Below, in pieces: positions 9,839-41,066 of a stretch of 64,000 nt of DNA (positions are counted from its first letter, which is position 1; each line of letters opens with the position of its first letter). The notes below the pieces were generated by a model. That model worked only from the letters and a program-made list of their open reading frames with translations, was not told the DNA's origin and did no database searches. A program made the translations under genes and the position numbers. The stretch comes from Antedon mediterranea (lineage: Eukaryota; Echinodermata; Crinoidea; Comatulida; Antedonidae): the NCBI RefSeq assembly GCF_964355755.1, contig NC_092678.1:6730922-6794921 (forward strand). The letters are read 5' to 3'.

Positions 9839-12800
9839 ATGTGTGGTCCAGGCACCGAATGTCACTTCACACAGTTAGGGTTTGGAGGGGAGTCAGCCAG
9901 AAGATTTACAATACCGTCTGTAAGTATCATCATTCTTTATGATATTTTATCAATATAGAATTATAATGTAGGCCTATATTATCACTCTCAATCAAGATGT
10001 TACCTTTTTTGTAAAAAATGTATGTATAGGGCTATATAAGTGTATTATAATGTACCGTATGTATAATGTAGACCCAGGCTTATGTATACTGTGTGTGTGC
10101 ATATAGGTATGGTTAAGTAGGCCTATTTCCTGTTCAACTTTCTCTTGTTCTTGTACGAGTACTGAACGATAAATCTTTATTTATTTTTTTTTTTATCATG
10201 CTATGGCCTATATAAAACAAGAAATATTTCTTACAAAAAACGCCGCGTAACTTTTTGACTGGACAGTTGTAAGAACAGTCTTCATTAATCTAATATAATA
10301 GGTCGGCCAATCAAAACGCAAGTGAACAATTGGGACTTTACTTGTGATTTATGTCATTGGCCTGTCAGCACAGTCGTTTCTTTCTACTGTAGAATTAAAC
10401 GCACAAATTTGTATTGGGAATAATGTATGTGGTTATTACTATCGCATTTAGGTATTGATAATAATAATAATATGGCTTTTGAATATATAATTACTGTCTG
10501 TAGAATAACATTTATACATTTTCGGTTCGCGATGGATTTGTAATAGGTATTTATAATAATAGTATATGGGTTGTATTATTGCTAAGCTATCACCAAATCG
10601 CGTTATAACATTATTTCTCAGGGTTTTTTGCACCATTGATCAATACCAAACGCGTATCGGTATTATAGTTTTTAATGAATCATTACATTAATAAAAATAC
10701 CCAATTAAATCAATCGTGTCAGTCCAATTCCGACTTATGTTTCGATCACATAGTTCTGTGTCTACACTGTCCCAACTAGTTTAACAAAAAAAGTGTGATG
10801 TGCCCAAATATGGTAGTGATATGCCCGATTATCGTAGTGATATGACATCGTCATGTCTATATAATATGGGCACATCATATTTAGTTTGATAGTATAGACA
10901 GAGCTTAAGGATTATATTTAAAAAATGTTTTCTTACATTTTGAACGGAAGTATTTATTTGTTTATAAGCCCAATTTTCCAGTCTTAATTTTACATTTTGA
11001 AAAAAAGTATTTATTTGTTTATAAGCCCAATTTTCCAGTTTTAATTTTACATTTTGAAAAAAAGTATTTTATTTGTTGATAAGCCCAATTGTGCAGTCTT
11101 ATTTTACATTTTGAACGAAAGTATTTATTTGTTGATAAGCCCAATTTTGCAGTCTTATTTTACATTTTAAACGAAAGTATTTATTTGTTGATAAGCCGAA
11201 TTTTCCAGTTTAATAATAATGACCCCTTCCACAGTGCTTATACCATATACATTTTACATGATATTGACCGTGGGTTCTTTACGCCTCTGATGCATTTGTT
11301 TTTATTGTACCTTTTTAATAAATTATTATATGTTTAGGCCTAATCACACCCAATTTATGAAACGGTCAGATTCCGATTTCAATTGAACGAAAGTAGTACT
11401 ATATTTATTATTCATTGATAAGCCAAGGGTCCCATGGCGTTAGCCAATATCTTGAGCATTTGACTCTTGTGTCAACCTGTAACACAAATCAATCTTCAAA
11501 ATCTAAAGAAAGAACCTCACACGTCTTTTTTGTGAGTGATACACTATGGATATGCCCACGGAAATAATATGTGGACATTGCAAACAATCATAGGCCTACA
11601 GTAACAAACATAACATGGCTAATAAGCATAACATTCAGACTTGCTTGTTTTCTAGTGGATTTTTATTTACTTTAGCATGTAGAATAAAACTAGTAACAGT
11701 GGCTATATTAATAATTATACTGATTATCCTTGATGTTATCGCGTCTAATAATAACATATTTTGTTGTTGATAAGCCCAATTTTTCAGCCTTGATTTTACA
11801 TTTTGAACGAAAGTATTTATTTGTTGATAAGCCCAATTTTGCAGTCTTAATAATGACCCTTCCACAGTGCATTTTACATGATATTGACCGAGGGTTTTTA
11901 CGCCTCTATAGGCACTGATCAATACCATAATTAATGTACTTTTTTAAGTGAATATTGAAATGTTTCAACACTCCCAGATTTCCTCATCTTTATCGTTTCA
12001 AAAATTAATTAAATAATTTTCAGTGTATCACCGGGCGGTTTGGAATTTATTTCTATGCCTGTTGTGTTTATATATATAATATTAAGTATAATTATGAATT
12101 CACCAACACTTTCAGGCCCGGGGCCGAGTTTGTGTAGACTAGACTTCCATGCACAGCCACATGTTAAGGAATATGAATCTCTTTATGATTTTAATATGGT
12201 TCGAAATGATATTACACAACAACGATTAGACAGCAACTGTGCAAGAGTCAAACTAATAAAATCGGAATGATCAATTAATTGAACATTTACAGCATAAGGC
12301 CCATACACTAGGACGATAACGATCGACGATAAATAGACAAATGTGCATTTTTAATACATAAACCAAAAGAAATATAAACAATTCCTTTGATGAAAATTAT
12401 ATTTTCACACGTCCAATCAAATGACGTCATGATTAGTAAGACCAATAATATCGTGACAATACAGCGATTTTATTGTTTTTATTTATCATGACGTCATTTG
12501 AAATTTGAAAAACATTATTTTTAGAACGAAAACCTTTCTAATTTCTTTTGGTTTATGTAAAAAAAATGCGTGCTATATATTTATCGTCTGTCGTTATCGT
12601 CATAGTGTAATTGGGCCTTTATACACAAAAAATAAATTGATTACGAAGTTACATGTCATTTTCACCTATCACCAAAAAACTAACCTTTTCAAAACTAATT
12701 AATTGTTACGAAGCCAATTTATATTATATATTTCATTAAAACTGAACTTTACGGTAAATGAAGAGTATCAGTTAATATGAATAATATAACTAGTAGGTCT

Positions 12801-15800
12801 ATGAACTTGCGTCCAGACACAGAACTGTGACATTACTATCATAAATGTTGAAACCACTTATAAAACCTTTTTTTTTAAAGAAAATATAATTGTGTTAGGA
12901 GAAGGCTAATAAACAAATAGATAATGTTCAAACCTTTTTCTGGATTAATTAATGGAGCAGGCGTTCCTAATAATCTGCTGTAGACTGATTGTTCACCTTC
13001 TGACGATAATTGATTGGACCCCCCACGGCATCTGATAACCAACAAAAAATTTACGAGGACTGTTTCAATGATTTAATATCTGACGGCGTATTATTATAAC
13101 ATTGGCCTAGATTGAAAGTCAAAGAAAGTCATTGTAAATACCTCCCTTTATGTTGACAGAGCCAAAATAAAGTTTTGACCATTATCGAATGATTATTTGA
13201 CAGTGACTTATTATAATACCGGCCTGGTTGACAGCAAAAACGAAGTTATTATTTATTGATCAATATTTTACAGATTTCCGTCTACATCTCAATAATACTG
13301 TATTATCAGCAGAGGCTTTCATATAGACTCTCTTCTCCCAGACGTTTTTTGGGTCCAGCAGCTATACCTATAAATTATAGTCGAGTTTCCAAATTCACAA
13401 AACTGTCAGTCTTAGATACTAAAGCTACCGCTATGAAACAGCTTATTAATGAATGTGTCCTCCTGGGACATAACTGGCTAGAGCCGCGGCGCGAAAAGAT
13501 GTAGGCCTATTGATCATTATAAATTCAGTAGAGTACTGAAAACGTTCCGCTTATTAGATAGTAATATCAGGGAGTTGTTATTAGTAATAATAATTATATA
13601 GTAATAACAACTCCCTGGTAATATAACATTTTATATGAACTTGAGAACGTTTATCATATTTCATGACTTCTTCAAATAAATACTTAGCTGATTCTCCACG
13701 TATCCGGCGTGTATGTTGGCTTAATGGACCGATCATAATATCATATTTCGTTAAATTAACACTTTAAATTGGCAGGTCTTGGTATTTAGTAGGACCCATC
13801 ATTTGCTAAGCCTAAACGCGCCTCATGAAACTGGAATACTAGGGAGAAAAATTAGTTTAGAATGGTCCGGTATTTCGCCAAAGTCGAGTAAGTAGGTCTG
13901 CAGATTGTACAATAACAATGGTAAAGTGTCACGCTTCCAATCACAATTGATTATTTGTCACCCTAACAACAACCATTCAAATGTCTATTGTTGACCCACA
14001 ATACAAATACCCAAGACGCAGTCACTATAACTCACGTCACATTTTTTACTCAACAATACATCAGCTCCGTGATGGTGATTGATAATTGGTCCGATGTTTG
14101 CCCTACTCTGACGTAATTTAATTTACATCAGAGATAGGACATTGTACTGTTTATATTATCATTCATAAATGTATTAATATCTTGCCACTTTTACCTTTTT
14201 ATATCAAATCTTATTTTGTTATTGTTATGTTTTGTTGGATCTTTCTGAGACAGGCCTCTAAGTTTGATCCAAATTAATGAGATCTTTATTTGTTTATACT
14301 GATTATTGTTAACGTTTTCAATGATTGAATTGAATGTAATATTTATCTGAAACGGAACCATTTATGATGACATTCTCCTCTTCTATGTTTCAACCCCCAC
14401 AAAGATTGTGATTTTTGTTGTGGTTACACAATGTAAATCTGACGTTAAATTTAAATGAAAGTACTAACGACCACGACAGACAATACAACAACCGCTAAAT
14501 CCCTTTCCAATGTCAAGATTATCGACAAGGTAATATGAATTCATAAATTCAACTAAAGACGTATACTATAGAGAAACAATATAATAATCCAATTATGAAT
14601 ATTGACCTTGTAATACTTTTCTGTTATACAGTATACAATAGCTTGGAGGAAAATTAATAATATTATTCCCTCATATTTACCGTTTTAACTAGATTTCGAT
14701 GAGGGATATTTCTAAATAAACAAATTGAAAATTCTGTAACATTAATTGCTTTTCTAGATTGTGTAAATCTATTTAAACTTACATTATCCGATTCTCGGTT
14801 CCTGTATGTTTTGTATAGTATCATAGGCGAATTCTGCGATACAGTGTCACATATTAGTAACATGTGGCCCTGTAATAATTTTGCTGTGATACTGATACTG
14901 ACAGATAATGACATTAATGTATGTCTACACTCGTCATAACTATAGTTTTGACGAGTGTTCAGTTATTCCTAAAACAAAACGTCATTGCTAAATGTGATTG
15001 TTTTCCAAAGATTTGATCATGTATCTTATCCAAACGTCATTTTCACTTTCATTTACTATTTAAAAATATACTTTCTTGACATCAGGGGGGTTGCCTGCGG
15101 AAGCCGGAAACAATGTCAAATAAACGGATCTCTAATGATTTCTACAAATTATTCTGGTATTGATGACTACGTAAACTAAACCAATTCCTATGTGAATAAG
15201 CATTTGTATTTTCAAGGCCAAAATATATTCATTTTACAATCATAAAATAGCAAGTCACAGTGATTCATTCCTACAGTAGGTTAATCTACAGGTGGAGTAC
15301 ATTTCAAAGAAAAAGAGAAACATAAAAGTTAGAAAACGTAGGCTATCAAAGATATATCTGAAATACAGGAAGTGCCGGAAGCAATGGGCGCGGACATGAA
15401 TTCAGACGTAGGCCTAGACCTACGGCGGCGCGCCCTTCAGGCTTTTCAAAAAGCACAATGCGATCGAAACGTTCCGGAAAGTAATGACAAACTAAATTCA
15501 ATAAAATAATCACTAACAGGCTCCGGGAACAGGCTATTATTACTCACAGATGTTAGATGAATTTTTCTACCATCATATTTATATAGTATCGCTGTGGCTA
15601 TTGTAAATGTGTTAAAGTGTTGCTACCATAATTATTAATGCTTGGTTCCCACTAGGATGCAAAACAAGGACGATACGCGCAAAACTCAAGCAATTTGACC
15701 AATCATTAGCGTTGGATTATCCGAACTGTCGCTTGTCATTGGTCAAATTGCTTGAGTTTCACGTATCTCATACTAGTGGGAACTATTGCCTAGCCATATA

Positions 15801-17158
15801 ACCAATTAAGCCTATCTATTAGTCGAGCATTTCTTTGAGTTCATCCTGCAGTATTGATGACGATCACGAAGAATTTCCTTCATGCTAACTGTACATTGAC
15901 AGATTATGCAAATTTATTTTCTTGTGTTTCTTACAGCTTAATTGGAAATGGCAGCCTACCTCCTACTTGTTGTACAGGTATTTAATCGCTATATATCAGA
16001 CGGTATGGTGTGTTCTAGTGATAGTGGAATGGGGAACAGAACCTCACTACTCTCTTGTTGATACTAAATGGAAATGGCTGATATACATATCTAATTGGAG
16101 CTATCTGCTGTTGACGGTGCATTTTATCTTTGCCGCTGTCGCGGTAACTGTTTACTATACGTGTAAGTATGGTTGCCCATCCCATTTAGGACGCAACGCA
16201 AAGACGCAAGCGCAACGTAAGTCACAAGCGATAGATTATTTGAACTGTCGCTTTTCAACTCGCTCTTTCGTTGCATCTACGTCTTTGCGTTGTGTTTCTA
16301 TTGTAATCAGCTTGCGTATGTGTCGGCGCGTTACGTCATAGAGCCCGTTCTGGGTGAGCTAATAGGGACTTCTTGATTTGAGTGGACGTTCACCACTAGA
16401 ATTCGACTGGTACATTACTCGTCCACAGGTATAATTATGTTTCTATTCAAGTGTTGACACGCTAGTATGACAATGTTGAATAATAACCATGTGTGACATT
16501 ACACAGCTTCAGATGTAATCGTGCAATCCTTATTTGGTAGGCCTACGGTCTTCGTGACATTATTCTTAAACTAATTACATTTGTTTTATCAGGTGGTGGC
16601 TGCAATGATGACCCGCATTCGAAAGATCCAACCATAGAGATGTCTGAACGAGGAGAAGGATCCAGTCACGTCAACACCCAAGGTGACGCAACCATGCCGT
16701 GGTACCTGAAGATGATGTGGTTTCTCCAAGTGACCTCTTACAGTGCCGCTGTAGCAGTAACAATTCTCTACTGGATATTAGAGTACGAACCAGACACAGA
16801 CTCGATCCACGCATATGGCGTGCATGTCCACGGCATCAACGTACTACTGGTGGTCATCGACTCTTTGATTGTTGCCAACCCGTACCGACTTCTTCACATG
16901 ATCTACCCAGCTTTGTACGCTTTGGTTTATTTCATTTTTACGGCAATCTACTGGGCTGCTGGTGGTCTCAACCCCGTAGGAAACCCATGGATCTATAAGG
17001 GGTCATTAGATTGGGAGAATGAACCAGGCTTATCAGCAGTTATCGCCGCCTTGACGGTTGTTGTAGGAGCTCCTGTTTTACATTTTCTGTTTTGGTTGCT
17101 TTTTAAGATTAGGGAAGCTGTATTAAGCCGATGTTGTGGATCTTCTCAATTTGTTTAG
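9839..17158 (+). CDS. Rolling-stone-like membrane protein A (3 exons, 290 aa)
   Basis: Exons 9839-9919, 15937-16162 and 16593-17158 join with phases 0 and 1 through GT-AG introns, giving 873 nt ending in TAG. Exon 1 encodes a short cytosolic head with MCGPGTECHF and LGFGGESARRF. Exon 2 encodes two membrane spans, with WGTEPHYS and the family block DTKWKWLIYISNWSY. Exon 3 starts with a Cys/acidic linker and then carries about four spans, including PWYLKMMWFLQV, GVHVHGINVLL, VANPYR and the loop YKGSLDWENE. This matches the Rolling stone family, whose Drosophila founder is a membrane protein needed for myoblast fusion. The biochemical activity is unknown. It is the first gene of a six-gene tandem array. 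The MCG start is shared with gene F, 25 kb away. Intron 1 is 6 kb and full of repeats. Confidence 0.9.
10752..10906. mobile_element. MITE-like element, CTCTGTCTACACT family, copy 2
   Basis: TIRs TTCTGTGTCTACACTGTCC and AGTATAGACAGAGCTT flank GTGATGTGCCCAAATATGGTAGTGATATG and its inverted ATATGGGCACATCA. Lies in intron 1 of gene A. Confidence 0.7.
10925..11212. repeat. 57-bp tandem repeat, about 5 copies
   Basis: The unit core ACATTTTGAACGAAAGTATT...GATAAGCCCAATTTT starts at 10935, 10992, 11049, 11106 and 11162. One or two more units, with their flank TAATGACCCTTCCACAGTGC and TTTTACATGATATTGACCG, recur at 11755-11910, so the array edge was duplicated as a block. Confidence 0.85.
12294..12621. 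mobile_element. Palindromic MITE-like element, AAGGCCCAT...ACTAGGACGATAACGAT family
   Basis: Ends AAGGCCCATACACTAGGACG and the complementary ATCGTCATAGTGTAATTGGGCCTT form long inverted arms. Inner arms include CAAATGACGTCATGATTA and CATGACGTCATTTGA. No coding capacity. A second copy lies at 23493-23888 in gene C. Confidence 0.75.
13568..13617. repeat. Perfect 16-bp hairpin CAGGGAGTTGTTATTA
   Basis: CAGGGAGTTGTTATTA at 13568-13583 and its exact complement TAATAACAACTCCCTG at 13602-13617, with an 18-base AT loop. The same termini CAGGGAGTT/AACTCCCTG form a smaller hairpin at 35275-35294. Confidence 0.8.
15641..15788. mobile_element. Foldback MITE-like element, TTGGTTCCCACTAG family, copy 1
   Basis: CTTGGTTCCCACTAG and TACTAGTGGGAACTA are the termini. 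Inner arms CTCAAGCAATTTGACCAAT and ATTGGTCAAATTGCTTGAG pair, with a GCGTTGGATTATCCGAACTGTCGC centre. Intron 1 of gene A. Confidence 0.75.
16170..16300. mobile_element. Diverged copy of the TTGGTTCCCACTAG foldback family
   Basis: AGGACGCAACGCAAAGACGCA and ACGTCTTTGCGTTGTG are inverted arms around GCGATAGATTATTTGAACTGTCGC. It begins directly after the exon 2 donor of gene A. Confidence 0.6.
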
Positions 17159-18711: not shown

Positions 18712-18759
18712 ATGAATATTGGCACGATATATAGGCCTACAAAACTAATGTACAGTAAA

Positions 18760-20759
18760 ATGTTTTCAACGAAAATCGTTCGGAGACGATTCTGGATCGT
18801 AGTAGGTCTACTAAGTACGGTCTTCCGGAGGTTTAAGTCTTGGTCAGAAGACGCTTTCCAGCCAATCGGATTTCGTACAGAGTCTGCAAAAAGGTTCGCA
18901 GTCCCTATTGTAAGTATACAGGCCTGTTGCTTGATTTTATAGTATGTAGCTGTAAATTATAGGCATATACAGACAGTAACTTTCAAAATCAAAAGTAGTT
19001 AGTGTAGTACGTATTATGATTAGTTGTTTCATGGAGTAAATGGTTGTTTACAGGTCATCAACAATTGAGGGCGCTCGCTATGGAAGGCAATCGGTGCATT
19101 AAAATGTTTTTTTTTTCAAGAAGTCGTTTGTCTCCGATCATATTAATCGCTGTTGTTTTCCCATAAATACAATAGACCATCTGCAGCCGTGCACATCTAT
19201 CCGTCTTGTAATTTAGACTTTAGTCCGCTCCCTGCCTCTCCCTCCAAATGTATGACACGCAATCTGTGCCAAAATCTTAATGTTAAGCTGAATCGCCGTC
19301 TAGAACCTAGACTAATCTAGACATGTCACTTTAAAAACATAAACAAATTCTTTCCTCTTTTTCAGTTCAATTGGCAGACACGAACGTATATTATTTATCG
19401 TTGTGCAATCGCTTTTTACCAACTGCTCTGGTTGTTGTTGGTCGTAATAAAATGGGTAACCAAGCCTCGTTACGAAGCTTTCGATACCAGATGGAAATGG
19501 TTCATCTACGTATCCAACTTAAGTTACTTGTGGCTAACCGTGTATTTCATTGTTGCTGCTTTTGCAGTAATTGCATATCACAAAGGTAAACAATAGATGA
19601 AGACTAAAAAGGGTTTATTGCTTGGTTCCCACTTAAGCAACAGTAAGCGCGCCGTAAATAATCAATCGACGACGTACGCGATGGATCATCTAAAGATTGA
19701 TTCCCACTAGCGACGCAACACAAGGACGTAACGCAGCACAAGTGATTTGACCAATCACAAGCGATGGATTATTCGAACAGTGGCTTGTCATTGGTCAACT
19801 CGCTTGTGTTAAGCGTACGTCCTTGCGTTGCGTCTCTAGTGGAAACCACGCTTAAACTGTCGCTTGTGATTGGTCAACTCACTTGCGTTGTGCTTATCCA
19901 TAGGCTAGGAACAAAGCTTTATGACTCCAGGGCCTTGCATGACTTTCTTGGAAAATCAAGATTTGTAACGATATAAATAATTACGTAGATGGCTAGAGGG
20001 ACTCTGCAGCAGAACTTCTCATGTTGTTATAAAGAACAATCATTGTGCGCATGCGGGGAAAGTGGGACGCGCTTCCTCGCTTTATTCTTTGGCGGGTTAT
20101 GCTCCAGACGACGACCGATGACACATCAATGCCTAGGTCTTACGTAGTCGGTTATACATCAAAAGATCCCTAATTCTAAACTATACTAGACCTTATTACT
20201 TAACAATACTGTTGTGTTTCCATTTATAGGGCCTACAGATGCATCAGATACAGTGGGTGACGTAGAACGCATCGAAGGTGGGCAATACAACACAAGGAGT
20301 ACAAGAAAACAACGCCTACCAATTTACTTTTCACTATCGTGGTTTTTACAAGTTATAGCCTACAGTACAGCCGTCGCAGTAACAATTCTTTACTGGACTC
20401 TAGACTACGACCCTGCAGAAGATATCATTAACGTTCATGGCGTTCACGTACACGGCATCAATGCAATGCTTGTTGTTATAGATTCTTTAATTGTTGCCAA
20501 TCCATATAGATATATTCATTTTATATACCCATCTTTGTATGCTTTAGTTTATTTTGGATTTACGGTGATCTACTGGGCAAAGGGCGGTCTTGATTCAAAT
20601 GGACATGTATATATTTATAAAGGTCATCTAGACTGGGGGAACAACTCTAAAACATCGTTATCTATAGCTGTTCTCACTGTTTGTGTTGGCGCTCCGTTTT
20701 TACATTGTTTATTTTGGATTCTCTTCAAAATGAAAGAGATCGTCTTTAAACCATATTGA
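18760..20759 (+). CDS. Rolling-stone-like membrane protein B (3 exons, about 299 aa)
   Basis: Exons 18760-18909, 19366-19585 and 20230-20759 join in phases 0 and 1 to 900 nt. Exon 1 is longer and basic (STKIVRRRF), and ends in the family signature GFRTESAKRFAVPI before GTAAGT. In-frame ATGs at 18712 and 18748 also exist; 18760 is my choice because it gives a compact head. Exon 2 has two spans and DTRWKWFIYVSNLSY. Exon 3 has LPIYFSLSWFLQV, NVHGVHVHGIN, VANPYRYIH and the loop YKGHLDWGNN. Six membrane spans are expected. It is the closest relative of gene A within the array, by inspection. An AATAAA lies near 20822. Confidence 0.88.
19621..19905. mobile_element. Two nested foldback copies, TTGGTTCCCACTAG family
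   Basis: An outer unit opening CTTGGTTCCCACTTAAG and ending near 19905 holds an inner unit 19700-19843 with GATTCCCACTAGCGACGCAAC and GTTGCGTCTCTAGTGGAAACC. TTGACCAATCACAAGCGATGG and GCTTGTCATTGGTCAA are inner arms. Intron 2 of gene B. Confidence 0.65.
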
Positions 20760-22617
20760 ATTTTTTTTTTTTCAAAACTTATTCATTTCATTTTGTTATA
20801 TGTATGTAAACTTATTGTTCTAATAAAAAAAAAAGGTTTTATACCCTAACTAGCATTACCTGCTGATTAACAGATTTCAACCTAGAAAACTTGTAAAATA
20901 TCATGTAAAATAAGAGTTGAAATTTTAATTAAATTTTTTAGTTTTAAATCCATTGGTACGCAAAGGATTGAGAAATTTAACGTAACATACATCTGGTAGG
21001 CTAAATTATAATTATAAATATGCAATATATGCTGTCAGTAAAATGCATTTTGGAAACAAAAAATAACTACAGAACATTTTTCATTTTTATACTTTTTAGA
21101 TACACTTGCAAGTCCTTTGTTATTTACGAATTCGACAGATAAACACTTTTTTAAATTATTACTAGAACATATTAAAAATAATTTTGAAAACGGTGGTATG
21201 TCCGTAGATTAAATATTTATATTAAATTAATATTACCACAGTGCAACAAATGCAGTCCTTGCAGTAGTAGGCGCATATTAAAAAAAATATAACGCATCTT
21301 TACCTTGATACACAAGGCACAAAAACATAAGACTAAAAAGTCGGCACTTTTATCGTTTCTTGTCGGTTTCAGCTTTTATAATTTTGTGAAGACGTCCTCT
21401 GGAAATTCCACATTTAATAGCCTTTTGATCAAGAGGTAATTTTTTATAAATCATTTAATAATTCACAATTCAGTAAATATTTGGTTTACGAACTTTTTAT
21501 ATAGCCCATGACCATCTCCGTTGTTAGGTGCAAGATTGGGACGAATTCTCACAGATATCCTCATCTTTATCGTTTCAAATTAATTAACTTAATTTCGGTA
21601 TGTCACCGGGCGGTTTATTTATTATGTGCCTGTGATGTTTATAGATTACCTTACTAATAATAATGTGATTTTTATATAACGCTTCATGCACAAAGCATTG
21701 AAGCGCTTCACATTATTATTCCCGTAATTTTTAGCGACTGTACAGCTCACTATGTCGGTCGGTTAGTCGGTAAACACTAACTTGAGCACGCGACTGCAGC
21801 CATATATTATGGCCTTGTTGAATCTCTAAACCCTAATTCTATAATAAATGTTGGGGGCCAAGAACCATTAATAATGTATCCAAATATATTTATCATGCTT
21901 GTAAATATTTATGATTTATGTTTTTATTAGAGAACGAAATTAATAAATATTTTTGTTAATTAAAATTTTTTGCTTACTTTTTAAAAATTAAGTTTAATGT
22001 AATGTTTTATCAAAAATTAGAGGTCAGTGGCCGCATTCACCAATATATTTACTTCAAGTGAAATATTTAAATATTAAGTATTTCACTTAAATTGTATTTA
22101 TTTAGATAGGAGATTTTTTTTTTAATTTTAAGGGTAAGCGTGTCCCTTAGTGTGAATGCTAAATAAAGCCACTGAGGCCTATAACGTTAATAAAGTCAGG
22201 CAATTCGCCTGAATGATCAAACACGAATGAAAATTTCATACTCCTATAATGTAGCCTCAGCGTAGTTGTGAACAGTTGCAAACATGATTTGTTTATCAGA
22301 TTAAAAAAAAATCATTATTGACAACACAATTTAAATGCATAAGTCAAATTGTAATAGCATGGACCTATGTTCATGGTAATATTAAGTAAGGTTTGAACCT
22401 CTTTGGAAAACTACAATAGCGGATTAATTTTAAAAAAAAGTGTCACGCTACTGGAAAGGCACGCAATGAACGACACAGTACACCAGTAGAAGAACATAAT
22501 TGGATGATTGGATGGATTTGCACCTCCATTGTAAGATGACAATAGTGTTGTCTGTTAATTATATTCCAGATATAAAAAAAACAGTGTTACACTGCGAGTG
22601 ACTTGGAAGGCCATGCA
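20760..22617. other. Intergenic between genes B and C
   Basis: No gene seen. Bases 21560-21640 repeat a block also at 11965-12065 (CCTCATCTTTATCGTTTCAAA ... CACCGGGCGGTTT). Bases 21665-21825 carry an inverted copy of a repeat found at 53645-53740 and 63055-63155 (GACTGCAGCCATATA, GTCGGTCGGT). Confidence 0.45.
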
Positions 22618-24941
22618 ATGGACGACCTTCCATCTAATTCAATACATAGGCTTGGTATTAAAGTTATTTTAATTCATTCCTATTTTTTGGTGAAGATAAG
22701 TGCTGTAAACACAGTCAGAACAGTTCGAAGGCTTGGGTGTTGTGCGGCCAAGAAAGGCTTTAGTCAAAAACATTGGTCAGAATGCGCAACTTACTTCCTT
22801 TCGGTTTGCGGATTTGGAGGGGTAACACCTGAAAGATTTGCTTTTTCAGCTGTAAGTATTACCTACCGACACACGAGTGTTTTCTTTTGCTTGAAGTAAT
22901 ATTTCCATGCATGGAAGCCGAGATAAATTATTGCCTCAGAAGAAAAGGACTGAATTGTCTTTTTGTTTTTCCATTAGATCGAAAAGCAAACTGAGCGTTT
23001 GCAAAACGTCGTAGTAAGTATATATTTCGTACTTTTCGATCTATTGGAAAAATTCACTCCTATATTATTACGATCCAAATGAAATTATTTCAAGATATCC
23101 TCAATCATCAAGATGTTATTTCATCTTTTAGATTCATTAACACATTTCAACGGTTTCAATTCAATCTTAATTTATTTTAAAGTTTAATTGTGACGGATTT
23201 CCTGGACTATACATTCTGTACCGGTGTATGATAGCGTTGTACCAATTTGTATGGACAGTATTAATTGTCAGAGAATGGGGAAATGAACCACACTACACTC
23301 CCTCTGATCAAAAATGGAAAATGCTTCTATTTCTTTCATATTGGAGTTATTTTGGACTGACAGGCTACTTCATGTTCGCAACTATCGCCGTCTCCGTGTA
23401 CCACTATACAAGTCATAATGCAGGTAGGCCTACACATTTGTTTTATTCGTATGATAGCATTCATCCTCAATTGAAGAAATTCGGATTAAGCCTAAAGGCC
23501 CATTAACACTAGGACGATAACGATGTAAATATAATATAAGCATGCATTTTGTTTACATAAAACAAAATAAATTAGAAAGGTTTTCGTTCTAGAACTATAG
23601 GGTAATCATTTAGGCCCCTATGCGGTATTTGATAAAAATAATATTTTTTAAAATTCCAATCAGATGACGTCCTGATAAATAAAAACAATAAAATCGTTGT
23701 ATTGTCACGATATTATTGGTCTTACTAATCATGACATCATTTGATTGGACGTGTGAAAATATCATTTTCATCATTTTCTATAGTTCTAGAATGAAAAGTT
23801 TTTATATTTCTTTTGTGTTATGTATGAAAATTGCATATTTATCTATTTATCGTCGATCGTTATCGTCCTAGTGTAAAATGGGCCTTAATGCCTGACAGCC
23901 ACAGTAGTACAGCGCCTAATGAATGGCAGGGGTTATAATAATGCATTACACCGAGGTAACCCCTACTCTTCCGAAAGATGGGTTCTTTAATGTGGACACT
24001 ACGAATGAGATGTGTACACTGTATACATACTTATCCGATAAAAACCTGTTCTACGATCAGAACTAAGGTCGAGAAGAGACTTATGCAACGGAGGTAGAAA
24101 TCAAAGTGACGGTCACCATCCGAACTACCGATAGTGATTGGTCAACTTACATGTACGCGGACGTGGGAATTTATCCAATTTGACTTGAACATACATAAGT
24201 TGTCTATTTTAAAATCTATGTCCGTATTAATAACTGAATCTCTTTTGTTCTGTGTTTTATTTGTTTTCTATGTTTTCTAACATGACAATACTGTAACTTA
24301 CGGTGAGAGTCAATAAAATAAATGTAAATAAATGTATATATTAAGGTTCAATGGTTTAGTCATAATGATCTTTACTATCTAATTTTTCCCCAGACGAGTC
24401 TGAAAAAACTATTACAATAGATGAAGTTATAACACTGAATGTTGTTGAAGAAGGCGATCGAAATAACATCAATATGAATAAAGGACTAACAGACAAACGG
24501 GATCTTCCAAACTACTTTTCATTCATGTGGTTCTTGCAAGTGATAGCTTACAGTACATCGGTCGGGGCCACCATTGTCTATTGGCTTCAAGAACGTCCTA
24601 ATCACATCTTTGGAGCCCATGTCCATGGCATCAACACCGTTCTTTGTAGCATAGACGCCATAGTTATTGCCAATCCGTATAGGTTTTGCCACGTCATCTA
24701 CACCTCCCTTTTCTGCCTGAGTTATATCTTATTTACAGTGATATTTTGGACATTCGGAGGCCTAAATCATAAGGGGTATAGATACATCTATAAAAATCAT
24801 CTCGATTGGGAAAACAACATTAGCGATTCTCTTCTTTTCACGTTTTTTATTACTTTCATAATAGCACCAATTTCAAATAGTTTCTTCTGGCTGTTGATCA
24901 AGATCAAGGAAAACGTTATTCAACAATGGATTAATGAATAG
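22618..24941 (+). CDS. Rolling-stone-like membrane protein C (3 exons, about 340 aa)
   Basis: Exons 22618-22851 (start tentative), 23183-23423 and 24394-24941, phases 0 and 1. Exon 1 encodes an extended N-terminus whose conserved part is ISAVNTVRTVRRLG ... CGFGGVTPERFAFSA. The segment between the ATG and ISAV is poorly supported and could be UTR or intron. Exon 2 shows YILYRCM, WTVLIVREWGNEPHYTP and QKWKMLLFLSYWSYF. Exon 3 opens with an acidic linker and then NYFSFMWFLQVIAYS, GAHVHGIN, IANPYRF and YKNHLDWENN, ending KENVIQQWINE. It is a recent duplicate of gene D: most of exon 2 and exon 3 matches D closely, with the same donor GCAG/GTAGGCC. Confidence 0.85.
23493..23888. mobile_element. Palindromic MITE-like element, second copy of the 12294 family
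   Basis: AAAGGCCCATTAACACTAGG and CCTAGTGTAAAATGGGCCTT are the ends, with ATCGTTATCG in both arms. Lies in intron 2 of gene C; gene D lacks it at the matching site, so it arrived after the C/D duplication or was lost from D. Confidence 0.8.
23925..24100 (-). mobile_element. tRNA-derived SINE fragment (body only)
   Basis: Complement of the SINE bodies at 60790 and 61358: ACCGAGGTAACCCCTACTC, then AAGATGGGTTCTTTAA, then ACTTATCCGATAA. The tRNA-like head is degraded. Intron 2 of gene C. Confidence 0.6.
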
Positions 24942-28508: not shown

Positions 28509-30948
28509 ATGCGGGGGTTGGAATGGTGGAATCGGTTCAATTTGGCGTTTCGTTACGGTAATCCGGTTAAATTCGTTAGTCCACAAGTAAGTCTAGGCCT
28601 AACTGAAAGTAAAATATATTTAACATGATATTATCATTGTATAGGCCTAATTAGATGGTGGAGTTTTCCACTTAATATTGTCCGTTTGTATACAAAATCA
28701 TCAAAATGTAAATAAATAAGTTGAAAATGTGTACGGACTATATCTGACCTAGTGAGGACAATATAACATCTAGGTGGGAATGATGGGTTGTAAACACACA
28801 CACAACTAATAAAATCTTAAATTATTTTCTTATACACCCAAGTTTCTTTTACGATTTGTCTTCGTATATATTAAGTGTAAAATTCCAAATATTTCATATT
28901 CCTACAAAGCAATTGTAAATCGTTATAATCTCAGAATCAAGAGCTAGGCTAATTTGTAATTGTACTAAATCGTTCAACTTGGTTATATAGCCACTAGCAT
29001 TATTAAAACCTAATCTTCATTTATTTTAAATACCGTACCGTAAAAAGATTGGGGCTATTTACTTTGTGATTCTTTACTTGAGGTGTATTAGACAATAACA
29101 TATTGTTTAAATTCATTATTTCCACCAATCCACAAGGTCAAATTTTTCTAATAAACTATTTTTTTAAAAGCTGATGTTTTCTGTAATAATTATGATATAG
29201 TACTTTTTTTGTACTTTTTAAAAAGTTGGTTTTATTAGGAAGGATATTTACAGCATTTTGTTTTAGTGAAACATTAGTGCATTCTTAAGCGTTGTCTATA
29301 CTATCTAACTAGTTGGACAAAAAAAGTGTGATTTGCCCAAATATGGTAGTGATATGACGTCATCTTTGTTTGTCGTACAAAGTTTGGTAGTGTAGACAGA
29401 GCCCAAGAAAAAATAGTAAACTGTGCTCAGAAAAGCAGAGCGAAAGAGGGCGTGTTATTTAATATGCCAACCCATGTTGAAGATACAGATAACTCGAGAT
29501 TTTAATAAGATTTTGTGACGCCACAATATATCAATTTTCCTGAAATGATCTTGGTATCTAGTTGCAAAAAACTTTGAAATTTGTTTGGTAACTCCCTGCT
29601 TCTTTTCTGTCCACACATAGATTTACGTCACTCTGTTATTTTTTAGTGTAACTGGTTCTTTCAACCGTTTTCATTCATCATCTATCGAATATGTCTCGCA
29701 ATCTATATGGTCACGTGGTTAGTATTAGTCATTCTATACTGGGGCGAGGAACCTTATTACCCGAAGGTTGATCGAAAATGGAAATTTATTATATATTTCT
29801 CAAACTTGACGTATGTGATGTTCACTGCTCACTTTGTCGTAGCTGCCTTTAATGCTGTTGTTTACCATTCGTATAGAAGATGTACAGGTTTGTATCAGAA
29901 CATTTTGATTTCTATTTTTTGGGGCTTAGCCTACCGTAGGCCTATAAGGTTCAAACCGGGGAATTAGAGTGTAATTTCACTCTTCCCAGGTTCAAACACC
30001 TTTCGGAACCCAGCACAATGTCGTAGCGAAACCCCCAGTTCGATTCTTGCGAGAAATTTGCTTCTTATATTTAGTTCTATTGTAAGTTAATATAAAATAT
30101 TTAAAAAGTCATCGCCTGTTTTGGAACGCCAAACCCGCAAAAGTCTACGCTTCCTGATGAAATGTATGCGTTATGGTCCCTGTAAGTCTAAAACAGTGCA
30201 TGTGCATCAGATGTGCTTATGGCAGCTTAAGGGTATTTTAAAATTGAAAAAAAATAATTTTTGCATTATATTGAATAATATAGTGACAATTTGCTTAGAA
30301 AGTCAAGCAGTAACATTACAAATTGCTTATACAGAATGTGTCACAACCCACGTAAGAATTAATTTTATTCTACTGCATTACATATTCACAGTTACGTCAA
30401 CAAAATGTGCTACAGAGAAACGAAAGACAAGTCCCAGTCCATGCCTACTACCTTGGTATCTTCGTTTACAATGGTTCCTTCAGACGATAGCGTATGGAGC
30501 AACACCGCCATTAGTGAGTGCGTACTGGCAGGAAGAACATCGTCTTGGTTTCGATGAATACAACTGGACTGCCTTCAACATGCACGTGCATGGCATAAAC
30601 TACCTAATATTACTGATCGATACGATTCTTGTTGCAACGCCGGTAAAATTTGCCCATTGTATCTACCTCTCAATGTACGGCTTTACCTATTTAATATTTA
30701 CCGCCGTTTATTTTATCGCTGGTGGCACGGACCCGTATGGTGAACAGTATATATACGCCCGCTGGATGAATTGGGCAGAAGATCCGTTGAGGGCGGCGGT
30801 GGCAAGTTTCTTTGGAATTGTCATCATTTTACCGTTGTCTCAGATTGTGTTTGTTATTATGACTTACATCCGGGCTTTCTTGAGCAATAAGCTTGGCTGT
30901 AACCCTCAGGTCGACAACGAATGTGCATGTGATAAAGATATGCTGTAA
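28509..30948 (+). CDS. Rolling-stone-like membrane protein E (3 exons, 291 aa)
   Basis: Exons 28509-28586, 29647-29887 and 30392-30948 sum to 876 nt with phases 0 and 1. Exon 1 is a 26-residue head (MRGLEWWNRFNLAFRYG ... KFVSPQ), where the GF-x-G-E signature has weakened. Exon 2 shows WGEEPYYP and DRKWKFIIYFSNLTY; its donor GTTTGT is weaker than in the other genes. Exon 3 has LPWYLRLQWFLQTIAYG, NMHVHGINYLI, ATPVKFAH and the loop YARWMNWAEDP, then a Cys-containing tail (CNPQVDNECACDKDML). VANPYR of genes A and B is replaced by VATPVK. The most diverged member apart from F. The open frame continues upstream of 30392 into intron 2 but lacks similarity there. Confidence 0.87.
29288..29402. mobile_element. 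MITE-like element, CTCTGTCTACACT family, copy 3
   Basis: GTTGTCTATACTATCTAACT and GTTTGGTAGTGTAGACAGAG termini, with GTGATTTGCCCAAATATGG inside. Shortest intact copy. Intron 1 of gene E. Confidence 0.7.
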
Positions 30949-33900: not shown

Positions 33901-34045
33901 TTTTCGGCGAATATTATAATAATAACTACAAAATGTTTATTTTCGTTTTGGACAACATATTATTTTATCCTGTTGACCAATCGCGTAGTTGTTTTATATT
34001 CATCTGGAGCTAGGGCGCCACCTTGTGAGTTTAACTGTTGAGCAT
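30949..34045. other. Intergenic between genes E and F
   Basis: AATAAA at 30985 follows gene E. Apart from the foldback element at 32063-32258, only AT-rich DNA is seen. Bases 32330-32470 repeat ACTCCGATGTA/ATTCCGATA five or so times. Bases 33560-33650 resemble a retroelement tail. Confidence 0.45.
32063..32258. mobile_element. Palindromic MITE-like element, GGGCCTTTCACACCTGTTCCGG family
   Basis: Long, near-perfect arms: AAGGGCCTTTCACACCTG with CAGGTGTGAAAGGCCCTTT, GGCACGGTTCCGGTCCGGCG with its complement, and AACGCCAATGTTTCGTTTT with AAAACGAAACATTGACGTT. GC-rich relative to its surroundings. Another copy at 39868-40092 and a fragment at 63160-63290. Confidence 0.85.
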
Positions 34046-34467
34046 CATATAAGAGGCTTGGAGACTTGGCGTGGAAGTCAGCAGTAGGCTGTAAACGGAA
34101 ATATCGTGCGCATAACTACTAGAAACTCCGGAAAAGGCGTATTATACTTATAATCAGAAAACATTACCTGTATTGTGCTGTATTTGGCATTGACGTTAAT
34201 TTCTATCGTCACAGCAAGATTAAGCCATAACTTTATTCCAGTTCTCGAATTGTGGAATCATATAACATGTAAGCATATCAAGACTGTTGAGGTATTTCAA
34301 GTTTAACCAAAGTTATATAAATTGAAATACTCAAAAACTCTATCAGGTGTGTTTAAAATCATATAATTGTTTGACCCGCTCCAGTTCCCATTTGTGGGGC
34401 TTACAGTGCTACAGGATTAATCTGTTTCAGTGAATGTTAGCATTATTTGGAATACTGTATCATAATC
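34046..34467 (+). promoter_or_regulatory. Putative TATA promoter and 5' UTR of gene F
   Basis: CATATAAG at 34046-34053, followed about 30 bp later by GTCAGCAGT, an initiator-like start. About 390 bases of UTR would lead to the ATG at 34468. Inference from motif spacing. Confidence 0.4.
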
Positions 34468-37400
34468 ATGTGTGGTCGCTGCGGAGAATTTAGTGTTAGA
34501 AACTTTGGATTTAGAGGAGCATCGCTAGAGGATTTTACAGTTGCCAGAGTAAGTTTTTTGTTACTTTCTTTTAAATTTATTTATATATAACATCGAAATT
34601 AAACTAGATTTCAACTCGTAAACAAATTGTATATTCTGTCTAGGATACAGGTTTAACGCATGGAACGACATAATTTTCTGATGCATGGCCTAATTGTTAA
34701 AAATACATTGTTTTCGTCGAAATAAAAGACACACATAACGACATGTATTTTACTTTACAAAAAAATCATTCATTTTTTGGAGGAAAATCTGTAAGCTTTA
34801 CATTTTCCTTTTCATCCTTTTGGAATTAATAAATAAGTAATCATTGTTTTTCTTATATCTTAAAATTAAAATTAATGCCATTCTCATCAATTTTTCAAAG
34901 AATAAAGGATGAACTTTTTGTGTTTATTACAAATACAATAATCGATGTAAAGATGAAGATAAAACTACAGTAGCAACGTTATCGGCTGTAGTGCTGTAGT
35001 ATGAACAATTTGTAATAATCAGTAAAATAACAAATCGCTTGATATAAGGTTTCTGTAAATTAGGTAATGTGTTATACATCTACTACTCTAACTGCAGTCT
35101 GACACAAATTTTAATTTGCTTACCAATTCATTTTTTCTTTTGTGGGCTCTCCTCACTTTTATTTCATCGAAAAACGTATCATTATTTTAAAAACAAACGG
35201 TATTTATACAGTGTATTGAAAATAAATTGCATTGTCTAAAAACATAAACACATACGTAAAATTGTATGTAAAGGCAGGGAGTTGTAACTCCCTGGTATAG
35301 GCACAGAACAAAGTCTATATACAAACAAACAAGCATCCACATTAAAAAGTAAATATGTAGCAATTTGGATAATGGACATAAAACATGATTCTGAGTAATT
35401 ATGTATTTATTTACATTTTTAATAGTCAGTATTAGTTTTATTTCCTCATACATTCATTACATCATCATCTTTATTGCAAAGTTATTTCACATCGTGTTAT
35501 CAACATTCAGTAAAACTATACAATGGTTTAATATAACTGTGGTTTCGTTGCATTGTTGGTCTAAATCACGCACCATTTTCACACCCTATGTACTTAGTTC
35601 TCAGAGTGTGGTATAGAATAATAACTTGTCAATAGAGCCTACTCTATTATCAATAGAAATTATGCAATTCTAATATTTGTTTTATGATTTCAACATTTGG
35701 TGACTCACCAAAGTGTTCAGACAAAAAGAAACCCAACCGATTGAATGCTATTACTTTTTCTATTGTTCCTATTATCATAATACTTTTATATTAGTAGGCC
35801 TATTCATTCTTTATAATGTGGCACAAGTGCTACTGTTTTGTGATTGTTTTAGCTGTGAGGTGTCCTGACCTGTGGCACAGAACTGATGTATATTGTGAAC
35901 TGATTTCTGATTCCCTGGAAGACTTAGGCGGGGACTTAGGTTAATCCCATGTCGTTTACCTGCCTTTAATCCATTTAATCTCCGGATCAGGTCAATTCCC
36001 GTCTGGTATTTGCATTAAAAAATAAATTAAAATATTAAATATTTCATAACAGAACAGTATACAGAAGAGTAAACATCATAACTGAACAGTGTAGGCCTAC
36101 AGAAGGGTAAACAAAATAACAAAAAACATCAGTAAAATATGTATGGTGCAATTTGTAATGGGTCATATCATATTTCTAGCAACGAAACTTTTTTTTTCAT
36201 AATTTAAATATAGACCTGTACTGTATTCTTTTGTTTCACTCTTTGTATACTAGACCTAACTACACCACCACCCGAGTAAGAAGGTTAGGGCCTACATAAC
36301 ACATCTTTTGTTTCACTCTTTGTATACTAGACCTAACTACACCACCACCCGAGTAAAAAGGGTAGGGCCTACATAACACATCTTTTGTTTCACTCTTTGT
36401 ATACTAGACCTAACTACACCACCACCCGAGTAAGAAGGGTAGGGCCTACATAACACATCTTTTGTTTCACTCTTTGTATACTAGACCTAACTACACCACC
36501 ACCCGAGTAAGAAGGGTAGGGCCTACAAAACACATTTGGGGAATTTGAAGTTTAGATAGATTCTTCAAAAAGATAATATTGAGTCTCAATGATCTGTTTC
36601 TTTATTCGAAGTACACTATACTTTGGTTTTATCTATAGTCTTATACTTGTACTTTATAACAAGAGAAGTTTTAATTTTATTTATTTATTTTATTTTTGTT
36701 ATTTATTCAATTTCTGCCATATACATAACAAAGAAAACAAAACAATTATAAAAAGAGGCATGGAAAGACCAAACAGATGCTAAACACCTATGCTAGTTGG
36801 TCAGCCCAGAACAGAGAAAAATAAATAAATTACGTTCTACAATAAAAGCATCGACAAGAAAGCGACCACCAACTACACACATTTTCAATATCAAAATTAT
36901 TTAAAAAATAAATATTGAGATAATTAAGTAATTTGGTTTTAAAAGAACTAACAGAAATATTTAAGTTGCGGATTTCACTGGGTAAGTTATTCCAAATTCT
37001 GGTAACACGTGGGATATATGATTGAAAAGAAGATTCTGTTCTGCAGCGACGAATATCAAAAAGAATACCAACAGAAGAGGAGCTACGAGTAAGACGTTGT
37101 GGATTACGAATATTAAATAAATTGTCAGTATTAATTATATTAGAATTTCTACGCCCTGGTATCCTTTTCTGATTATTGAAGATGTGGTAATATACATTAT
37201 CTTCTAATAAGAACTGTCATAGTTCATAACTTTCATGACCTAGTATTTACTTTTTTTTTATCATTCGTTTGATGGGTCTTGCGTGACAAGTAATTTCTCC
37301 TTGAAAGATCCTCTACTAATGCTATTTAATCACTGTATCATTGATAGAAATTAATAAAATGTTGACTTTAATTGGAATCTTACATTCTTATTGACATGAA

Positions 37401-40400
37401 GAAGGTTATGTTCTTGCCTTATTTATACGACTAGGCCTATTATTACTTTAAAACTGTAGCAGCATTGTGTTGCCAGTCCACCGAACACAATGTTATTCCT
37501 ATTGACATTTTATTCTCACCAGTTTTATATTCAGAAAATTGTTAACCTTTTTAAAAATCTCTCGACTGTAAAGTAAATATTTTTCTTAACGTATTATTTC
37601 AGCATCAATTAAAGAGAATGGAAATAGTTTTTAATCAGCCAAGTGTAATTACTACTTGCTGTGTTCTTTTTCTTTTGTACTAACAATCAAGAAAATGCTT
37701 ACAGAAACCTAAATAATTTTAATTGAAGAAAGAGTAGTAAATGCACAGAACTGCCGCACGCGCGCGTTTAAACATTGATGTCAGCTTGTACGCGGCTTTT
37801 ACACACGCGTAAACTTTTTGATAAAATCAAAATGTCTTCCCTCACTCCACTACATTTTACGAATTTTTTTTTTTGCCGACATTTAGGCCTATGGGCCTAC
37901 TCATTTGACTGATATTACGAAACTTGAAATTGCACTCTGGCAATAATATTTTGGTTTCAGTCTAGATATTTCTGTGCAAAGATGATCGGACATGTCTAAT
38001 TACTTTAGGAAGATTTCTCTAAATTTTAAACTAAATTGTGAGGACATTATGTCATCAAAATATTGCCTATTGTTACTGTTTGTAATATCTTCATATCTTA
38101 GTAAAGTTGCTAGATACAGCATAACATGTTTGACACAAGTTACAGTACAGTTGAATCATAGGAATTAGTTCTGTGGTTAGGTAAATGAGGGTAAAAACAA
38201 TATCACATGTAACACTGTATTTATGAATTTTGCCATGATAATAATTTGAACATTTTGCCTTGATAATCTAAGGGAATATGCACATAATGATTGCAATTTA
38301 TCTAAAAACAAATATTGGTTTCAACCATGGAGGAATCATGTATTGTTTTTAAATAATTCCTTCATGTGTGAACTAACTATTGCCTATGATTTTTTTTAAG
38401 GATGAAAATTGATTTACCTTGACCATCGGTGGCTTCAAATCCCCCATGCCAAGGCCCCCTGGCTAGGATTGTAAATTGTATTGGTTTATAATCTATGGCT
38501 ATTTAATCATCCCATTTGTCAAACTAACTCCCAAGAATGGAGTTGGAAGTATCACGCTGAAGAAGTTGTAAATTATGCGTTAAAAGGGTCAAAAACTGTC
38601 AAAGTTACGTGGTACTTCATACGGGGCGCCGTCCGAAACCGTGAAGTCAATTCTATGGCTAAAATGAAGCCTAAATACACAAAATGTCATACACTGCAAT
38701 CATTTCTGTCCTATCCAGGAAGTCAATAAAGAAGCCCTGATATGATGTTATCTCAGTAAAAAAATTACTTTGAGCGGTACACTATCTATTCTGTCAAACA
38801 CAGACCAGTCACTGTGTAGTACGGGGCGCACTCCGACATATCTGTCCTATCATGAAGTCAATAAAGAAGCCCTGATCCATATGGTGTTACCTCAATCATG
38901 GAGGTATATTTTTATACCTCCATGCCTCAATACACAATTTCACTGTGGACGCTACACTAACTATTCTGTCCAATACAGACCATTATTACAAAATGTCACT
39001 GTGTAGTACGGGGCGCAGTCCGACACACTACAACCTTTTATGTCCTATCCATGAAGTTAATAAAGAAGCCTTGATAAGATGTTGCCTCAATAACACAAAC
39101 TATTCTGTCCAACAGACCATGGTTTTTCTTCCGATAAAAAAGCATGGTTTGTAAAAAAAAACTTATATTTAGTTTTCTATTTGGTATGATATAATAATTA
39201 GTGTGTCGGTGACATTATTATGCTAAATCATTTAAAGTTAAATTATCTGTTTGCCAATGTATAATAATATTTTCTCATCTCATGTCTTTCTGCTTCTGTC
39301 GGAATTTCAGGTTGAACTTTACTGAAGCTTTATACTATATTAGCGTCTATTTAAAGTGTATTGCTTTTTTTCTTTTTGTTGTTGTCTTGTTTGATATCGA
39401 AATTCACTTTTACCAAATAAATAAATAAATGACTCATCATGTATGTTGTCTTTCACAGTGTCCTTGGCCAGGACAACCAGCATCCTACGTCACATATCGA
39501 GTACTGATTGCCATATACCAATGCTCCTGGAATGTTCTCATTCCTTTTTGGTGGAACAATAACAAGTTTTTCACTGACCACACGGAGCAAACGAATCGCT
39601 GGAAATGGTTTATCTATATCTCCAATTGGAGCTTTACGATACTAAGTTTGTATTTCGTAATGGCGGCCTTGTCGAATTTCTATCATCAAATTAAATCTCA
39701 TTGCAAATGTAAGTATTAGAATAGCATTACCTTGATAGAGACCCTTATTAAAGGGACGCTTTTCGGGATACATCAAATTGTCCGTTCAGACCTAGTTATT
39801 TACCCGGGTAAATGAGTGATCTACCCACCAAAGTTACGTTACCGATAATGGCCCATGAAACCAACTTAAAAGCCCTTCACACAATATGTTCCGGTACGGT
39901 TCCAGTTCGGCGAAGCGAACGCCAATATTTCGCTTTCACGACGCTCTACGCGGCTAGCTATGCAACAATCGATATGGGCGTAGCCGGCCGCGTAAAAACG
40001 AAACATGACGTTCGATTGGATTTGCCGGCGCCGAACCGTGCCGAAACAGGTGTGACCGTAACCGTGCCGGAACAGATATGAAAGACCCTTTAACTCGGAT
40101 AAATAACTTAGCTTAAACGGGGCCCCAATGCCCCCTAATATAGATGCTGTAGTATCATTTGAATGGAGGTTGTCCGAGTATCAAAACATATTTTGTTCCT
40201 CGTTCGTTTAATTTTGTAGCACTTTTCACCAATCACAACCGACACAGGTCCGATTTTCCGTCACGTGTGGTTGTTCAAATTACTCATTTCATTACGTCAT
40301 TGAGTCAGGAATGAGATTCTTCCATGACGTCATACAATGTTTATGAGCGCGTAAAAAGTATGACTTAAATATTCTTTTTTTATATCAAATTTCAGGTTCA

Positions 40401-41066
40401 CATGGATGTGGTAGCAAAGAAGACGAAATGTTATACGCCGATAGTTTTCCAATTTCTCAGGACTCAATCGTAATGAACGAGAAACGTAAAAGTGCGGAAG
40501 CCGCCGCCGATCAACCGTCAACCATGATGCGGCAAATATCCAGCGTATCAGACGACAAACTAATCCGTAAAAACAGAAGGATTTATTATAGTTATCAAAC
40601 CGCTTTGCCGTGGTATTTTAAACTGACGTGGGTCCTACAAAGTTGCGCTTTCTCGCTCGTACTTCTCATCACCATTATGTTCTGGATCATTGAGTTTAAT
40701 CCTGACGTCACAGATGTTACCGTCTGCAACGTTCATGTTCACGGAGTGGCGCTGTTTCTGATTGTGCTCGATTGTTTCTTAACCGCCTCCCCCGTACGAT
40801 TTTTCCACTTTGTATACCCAACATTCGTTGTGATTGGCTACAGTATATTTACGTACGCTTACAATAGGTGTGGTGGCTTGAACGAGTACGGGGATACACA
40901 TCTGTATAAAGATTGGGTAGATTGGACAGATATGGAAACTAAATCATGTATTGTGGCAGTGTGTGCAACCTTCGTCGCTGTTCCTATTGCGCATGCGCTT
41001 CATTGTATTTTATGTTTGATTCGAAAGCGGATGTTCAGATGTTATGAGAAAAAATACATACTGTAA
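34468..41066 (+). CDS. Rolling-stone-like membrane protein F (3 exons, 333 aa)
   Basis: Exons 34468-34548, 39459-39708 and 40396-41066 sum to 1002 nt with phases 0 and 1. Exon 1 begins MCGRCGEFSVRNFGFRG, like gene A. Exon 2 has PFWWNNNKFFTDHTEQ, a longer loop than the others, then RWKWFIYISNWSFT. Exon 3 begins with a 65-residue Cys/Ser/Lys linker, then LPWYFKLTWVLQ, NVHVHGVALFL, ASPVRFFH and the loop YKDWVDWTDME, ending in a basic tail. The Asn of the family motif HVHGIN is replaced (HGVA), so F may differ in activity. It is the last gene of the array, with a 4.9-kb intron 1 carrying a LINE fragment and tandem repeats. Confidence 0.9.
35275..35294. repeat. Small hairpin CAGGGAGTT/AACTCCCTG
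   Basis: Nine-base arms around a two-base centre, with the same termini as the hairpin at 13568. Confidence 0.6.
36227..36533. repeat. 77-bp tandem repeat, about 4 copies
   Basis: TTTGTATACTAGACC recurs at 36242, 36319, 36396 and 36473, exactly 77 bp apart. Units differ at only a few bases, so the array is young. Intron 1 of gene F. Confidence 0.92.
36600..37219 (-). pseudogene. LINE reverse transcriptase C-terminal fragment and 3' tail
   Basis: Minus strand 37219-36830 is an open frame of about 130 codons. It ends with the pattern typical of the C-terminus of Jockey/CR1-type LINE ORF2: PRVTRIWNNLPSEIRNL, then SVSSFKTKLLNYL, then SWWSLSCRCFYCRT and a stop. About 200 bases of AT-rich 3' tail follow to near 36600. 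The element is truncated at the 5' side, so it is not mobile. It sits in gene F intron 1, antisense to the gene. Confidence 0.75.
38600..39130. repeat. Irregular tandem duplication, CGGGGCGC...AAGTCAATAAAGAAGCC
   Basis: TACGGGGCGC(A/C)(G/C)TCCGA, CTATTCTGTCCAA and GAAGTCAATAAAGAAGCC recur three times, at spacings of about 135 and 199 bases. The middle carries the hairpin CATGGAGGTATA/TATACCTCCATG at 38897-38923. Intron 1 of gene F. Confidence 0.7.
39790..40112. mobile_element. Nested foldback elements in gene F intron 2
   Basis: The outer element has termini TAGTTATTTACCCGGGTAA and TTAACTCGGATAAATAACTTA. Inside it, 39868-40092 is a copy of the GGGCCTTTCACACCTG family (GTTCCGGTACGGTTCCAG, AACGAAACATGACGTTCG, ATATGAAAGACCCTTT). 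The inner copy has an extra repeated CCGTGCCG(A)AACAG segment at its right arm. Confidence 0.75.

Follow-up and report, generated by a model that had tools for sequence, protein, structure and literature searches.

Rolling stone, the gene from which the Rost family is known, is cited as essential in Drosophila myoblast fusion, and a Rost gene is described as graded along the ascidian endostyle (PMC9953650). The FAR-17a/AIG1 superfamily includes AIG1, ADTRP and bacterial relatives. The residues T43 and H134 of AIG1 and T47 and H131 of ADTRP are required for hydrolase activity, and six transmembrane (TM) helices are predicted for ADTRP (PMC8123165).

The window analysed here is a stretch of 64,000 nucleotides of the crinoid Antedon mediterranea (C9:6730922-6794921) in a genome of 354 Mb and 18 contigs, of which C1, C3 and C9 are referred to below. 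Searches of this genome for COX1 and for a GH6 domain were both negative; it has no mitochondrial contig, and the lack of GH6 speaks weakly against a tunicate. Six Rost genes follow one another head to tail on the + strand of the window; the array opens with the gene 1 ATG (9839) and closes with the gene 6 stop (41066). A six-gene array had been proposed for this span in a sequence-only reading, and all six genes were recovered in it on that strand. The array resembles the Rost family as defined in Pfam (PF21534) in its single-domain architecture, its six hydrophobic helices and a profile match that covers most of the protein; it differs by its six tandem copies and by having Ser, not Thr, at position 79. 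When the whole genome was searched with PF21534, four further Rost genes were identified, all on C3: a tandem group of three at 25.507-25.522 Mb and a single gene at 14.976 Mb.

Gene structure and conserved core of the array

Each array gene consists of three coding exons with open frames. The introns are GT-AG in 12 of 12 cases, the first in phase 0 and the second in phase 1; this three-exon, phase 0 then phase 1 layout had been read from the letters beforehand and agrees with the spliced models of all six genes. The exons described below all lie on the + strand. Exon 1 of gene 1 (9839-9919, MCGPGTECHFTQLGFGGESARRFTIPS) has an ATG and a phase 0 donor GTAAGT and resembles the other first exons; exon 2 (15937-16162) follows a CAG acceptor, encodes TM1-TM2 with the DTKWK block and Ser79, and ends in T before a phase 1 donor GTAAGT; exon 3 (16593-17158) encodes the linker, TM3-TM6, HVHG and the stop, and matches PF21534 as an exon alone with E 4.4e-18. 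In gene 2, the recognisable part of exon 1 (18835-18909, GFRTESAKRFAVPI) ends at a phase 0 GTAAGT donor and has an in-frame ATG upstream, the start being uncertain; it is followed by exon 2 (19366-19585; CAG acceptor, G before a GTAAAC donor) and exon 3 (20230-20759; PF21534 E 3.6e-15, exon alone).

The recognisable part of gene 3 exon 1 (22786-22851, GFGGVTPERFAFSA) has a phase 0 GTAAGT donor and homologous DNA in gene 4; exon 2 (23183-23423; AAG acceptor, G before a GTAGGC donor) shares 86% identity with that of gene 4, and exon 3 (24394-24941) matches PF21534 with E 4.3e-11. Gene 4 comprises the recognisable part of exon 1 (26368-26433, GFGGVSPERFSVSI; phase 0 GTAAGT donor), exon 2 (26696-26933; CAG acceptor, G before a GTAGGC donor) and exon 3 (27227-27831; PF21534 E 1.6e-9). 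Gene 5 begins with an ATG in exon 1 (28509-28586, MRGLEWWNRFNLAFRYGNPVKFVSPQ; phase 0 GTAAGT donor) and continues with exon 2 (29647-29887; TAG acceptor, G before a weak GTTTGT donor) and exon 3 (30392-30948; PF21534 E 1.6e-12). Gene 6 likewise has an ATG in exon 1 (34468-34548, MCGRCGEFSVRNFGFRGASLEDFTVAR; phase 0 GTAAGT donor), followed by exon 2 (39459-39708; CAG acceptor, T before a GTAAGT donor) and exon 3 (40396-41066; PF21534 E 1.1e-11). Intron 1 is 6.0 kb long in gene 1 and 4.9 kb in gene 6, and no other Rost exon was found by tblastn between exons 1 and 2 of gene 6. The ten Rost proteins, used as tblastn queries against both strands of the window, gave no additional convincing Rost exon or pseudogene.

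An AATAAA or ATTAAA signal was located 7 to 210 bases 3' of every array stop; such signals are common in AT-rich DNA and are no more than compatible with six transcripts. Since each gene has its own first exon and its own stop, each probably has its own transcript. Judged from its sequence, the array comprises six intact Rost paralogues, each probably transcribed separately.

The gene array and its assignment to the Rost family are virtually certain. Exon 3 alone exceeded the curated PF21534 cut-off of 26.8 bits in all six genes, with 38.1-66.1 bits and E 4.4e-18 to 1.6e-9. The spliced models matched the profile with E 1.4e-19 to 1.7e-5, and five of six passed the cut-off, gene 4 reaching 24.8 bits. 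Gene 1 spans positions 41-248 of the 275 in the profile. These matches, the gene tree given below and the higher identity of the core uphold the earlier description of the genes as Rolling-stone-like paralogues in which the membrane core is kept.

The sequence motifs reported earlier were all recovered. Six of six genes carry [DNT]x[KR]WK in exon 2 and HVHG in exon 3, whereas the exon 1 signature is strict (GFGG....RF) in genes 1, 3 and 4 and relaxed in the other three, namely GFRTESAKRF in gene 2, AFRYGNPVKF in gene 5 and GFRGASLEDF in gene 6.

The two membrane parts have a mean pairwise identity of 0.46 and 0.43 among the six proteins, compared with 0.30 in the heads, 0.16 in the exon 2/3 linker and 0.12 in the tails, so that the earlier picture of a kept core with divergent first exons and linkers was correct in kind. 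The TM2-TM3 linker, 26-78 residues long, is the most variable part. The loops TM1-2, TM3-4 and TM5-6 are short, and the TM3-4 and TM5-6 loops are acidic; basic residues are found mostly in the linker and tail, with exceptions in genes 1 and 3, whose linkers have a net acidic charge. This charge distribution, read with the positive-inside rule, favours a cytosolic head, linker and tail, and the predicted topology is one in which the three probably face the cytosol. The idea of separate cytosolic heads was overstated: the charge counts fit the cytosolic side, but the heads are short (22-27 residues in modelled exons), alignable between genes and about neutral in genes 3 and 4. An AF2 model of the exon 3 part, made from ten sequences, had pLDDT 62 and pTM 0.37 and gave four helices at low confidence; with a pLDDT of 62 it is too poor to show the putative active site.

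Origin of the array and selection on its genes

In a maximum-likelihood tree of the ten Rost genes, the six array genes are separated from the four C3 genes with branch support of 100/99. The array forms one side of this fully supported split, and its genes are therefore local tandem duplicates. As an expansion in tandem the array is ordinary, and its genes are new members of a family already known. The C3 genes belong to the same family, and three of the four are themselves tandem, although they stand across the 100/99 split from the array and have 19-31% identity to it. In the place of HVHG they carry NVHT, NVHT, NIHG and HITV, and HVHG is typical of the array.

The phase 1 junction between exons 2 and 3 fits in all four C3 genes, and in c3a, the sole C3 gene with a modelled exon 1, the phase 0 junction fits as it does in the array. 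Because these genes fit the same intron phases, the exon grammar is a property of the family and not of the array, and it was most likely inherited from the ancestor of the Rost family. The fixed exon grammar put forward in the sequence-only reading is accordingly correct for the array but not specific to it.

Synonymous sites are saturated in most gene pairs and are well measurable only for genes 3 and 4 and for two C3 genes. Genes 3 and 4, the youngest pair in the array, have dS 0.43 and dN/dS 0.39 (95% bootstrap interval 0.28-0.55), and the two close C3 genes have dS 0.26 and dN/dS 0.39 (bootstrap interval 0.25-0.61). A dN/dS of 0.39 in both datable pairs indicates purifying selection and argues against freely drifting pseudogenes. 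That most copies are silent pseudogenes, an outcome that had been named as fatal to the array proposal, is contradicted by the open frames and by purifying selection on genes 3 and 4, the sole datable pair of the array.

The 5' ends of genes 3 and 4 have features of their own. The open frame of exon 1 in gene 4 lacks any in-frame ATG, and the single in-frame ATG of gene 3 lies far upstream and is doubtful. In the first-exon regions (22576-22851 in gene 3 and 26248-26433 in gene 4), a 24-base block before GFGG is present in gene 3 only. Both genes may have an additional 5' exon or start internally. An alternative frame through the two first exons was rejected, being closed by stops.

It could be argued from these 5' ends that part of the array is non-functional, with genes 3 and 4 lacking a proper start and being either silent or started at an internal ATG. 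Neither gene has an in-frame ATG beside its first exon, and their heads, compared over 22 codons only, have dN 0.38 and dS 0.40, that is, about the neutral rate. However, the splice sites of both genes are all intact, purifying selection acts on their exons 2 and 3 (dN 0.10-0.12, dS 0.34-0.37), whose frames are open, and an unseen upstream coding exon is possible; loss of function in this part of the array is thus considered unlikely.

Distant relationship to FAR-17a/AIG1 and a candidate active site

The genome encodes one FAR-17a/AIG1 (PF04750) gene, at C1:38.910-38.913 Mb. A comparison by hhalign of the ten-sequence Rost profile with this AIG1 alone gave P 0.0076. In this alignment Ser79 (in YISNW, where TM2 begins) lies opposite the KFLT Thr, and His182 (where TM4 begins, the second His of HVHG) lies opposite the second NHAMH His. 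We take this Thr and this His to be T43 and H134 of human AIG1. Against a profile of 36 bacterial FAR-17a/AIG1-like proteins, the Rost profile reached a score of 32.1 (P 8.4e-4), with 203 columns in a collinear alignment of all six helices, in a register that again pairs the Ser/Thr and the His. Against the same bacterial profile, the genome's own AIG1, which is accepted as belonging to PF04750, reached 29.7 (P 0.001). Null maxima for the comparison of Rost with the bacterial profile were 23.7 in 60 block-shuffled trials and 14.2 in 28 reversed and rotated trials.

Owing to the shallow profiles, the absolute hhalign probability is low and does not exceed 24%. HMM searches in a single direction were unconvincing both ways, the best for Rost against the bacterial profile having E 0.0098, and the superfamily link therefore rests on the profile-profile comparison and its controls. 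PF04750 was absent from the hmmscan results of all six array proteins even at E 10, and Rost is accordingly treated as a distant relative, not as a member, of that family. Solved structures, searched by sequence with Rost and the genome's own AIG1 as queries, gave no relevant chain for either family. Close relatives of the own AIG1 were not found in bacterial genomes, and a phylum-wide family search gave one match; a family-wide search was successful. A literature search returned no paper joining 'rolling stone' with FAR-17a or AIG1; the Pfam clan table may record the link.

From the profile comparisons, Rost would very probably be a distant branch of the FAR-17a/AIG1 superfamily that shares the fold of AIG1 and ADTRP. 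With AIG1, ADTRP and the bacterial relatives it has in common the collinear six-helix profile alignment, a hydroxyl residue near the start of TM2, a His near the start of TM4 and an acidic residue at His+10, while it differs in its longer TM2-TM3 linker and other intron positions and, in the array, in Ser for Thr.

Instead of in FAR-17a/AIG1, Rost could be placed among hydrolases of the CREST/PAQR type, to which the fusion protein myomaker belongs. CREST/PAQR proteins and Rost are both multi-pass and linked to muscle fusion, which counts in favour of such a placement; however, a 30-sequence HlyIII (PAQR, PF03006) profile scored 17.2 against Rost over 10 columns, compared with 32.1 over 203 columns for the FAR-17a-like profile, and the HlyIII value is below the shuffled null of the FAR-17a comparison. 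Rhomboid, likewise an unrelated multi-pass family and gathered by the same procedure, scored 12.7 against Rost, also over 10 columns. Membership of Rost in CREST/PAQR is extremely improbable, being disfavoured by the HlyIII score of 17.2 over 10 columns.

Within the FAR-17a/AIG1 alignment, the position of the catalytic Thr is occupied by Ser in six of six array proteins and by Thr in four of four C3 proteins. Position 182, aligned with the catalytic His, is His in six of six array and three of four C3 proteins, and the acidic residue ten positions after it is Asp192 in the array and Glu in C3. The remaining C3 protein, c3d (L023, at C3:14.976 Mb), has Thr at position 182 and a His two residues earlier; lacking His182, it would be inactive or work otherwise.

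In the proposed mechanism, each protein would have six TM helices, with the conserved core as its working part. The hydroxyl of Ser79 or Thr, at the start of TM2, would be the nucleophile and would lie on the same membrane side as His182 at the start of TM4, and the two residues would cleave the ester bond of a presumed lipid substrate by the mechanism known for AIG1 and ADTRP. The linkers and heads may tune location, partners or turnover for each copy. Rost proteins are on this basis candidate membrane lipid-ester hydrolases, and the sequence suggests such an activity with a likelihood slightly short of even. The explanation as a whole, in which tandem Rost paralogues form a branch of FAR-17a/AIG1 with an AIG1/ADTRP-like hydrolase mechanism, is given equal chances of being right or wrong.

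A strong rival explanation is that Rost only organises membranes or fusion, the proteins being non-enzymatic membrane organisers or adhesion/fusion factors in which Ser and His are structural only and catalysis has been lost; such a role has been proposed for Drosophila rost in myoblast fusion. Dead enzymes are common in membrane superfamilies, and c3d lacks the aligned His, so that the Rost family does not strictly depend on this site. The family name itself comes from a Drosophila myoblast-fusion gene (reference in PMC9953650). Against this, both aligned residues are kept in six of six array and three of four C3 proteins, and no adhesion domain was found in the Rost proteins by hmmscan. The non-enzymatic role is considered possible, with a likelihood well under even.

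Under the hydrolase reading, it was tentatively hypothesized that the whole Rost family is a branch of the AIG1/ADTRP membrane hydrolases, of which this animal has tandem-expanded a Ser-nucleophile HVHG version, and that the proposed role of rolling stone in fusion may be exerted through local lipid-ester hydrolysis, a proposal that we regard as doubtful more than probable. Should both the superfamily link and the alignment of the Ser/Thr and the His prove correct, a named family for which no biochemistry was found would gain a concrete, testable activity, and a fusion-linked membrane protein would, if this is true, be tied to the lipid-ester hydrolases. The ten copies in one genome constitute a natural series (Ser with His, Thr with His, and Thr without His), in which c3d lends itself to testing the proposed active site.

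Surroundings of the array

The array is adjoined by an open frame of 809 aa with immunoglobulin domains at 2810-5239 on the - strand. Downstream of it, an exon at 48565-49083 (-) matches cytochrome b561 (PF03188, E 4e-24) and another at 51855-52211 (+) matches NPR2 (PF06218, E 5e-14). A 5S rRNA match at 7357-7470 (+), with 43.1 bits against a gathering score of 38, is either a gene or a 5S-derived repeat.

Intron 1 of gene 1 contains a high-copy interspersed element of ~3 kb at 10532-13498, which extends slightly 5' of 10532. It has 98-99% identity to several copies elsewhere and dozens of partial matches of 92-99% genome-wide, and its recent mobility is likely. Within the element, a 57-bp tandem repeat occupies 10933-11214 and a long imperfect hairpin 12304-12609; copies of the element terminate at or near GCCGCGGCGCGAAAA. 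Furthermore, a 21-bp unit, GTGATATGCCCAAATATGGCA, forms short tandem arrays at 42639-42718, 63494-63564, 63816-64000 and 10795-10844, one of which lies inside the mobile element.
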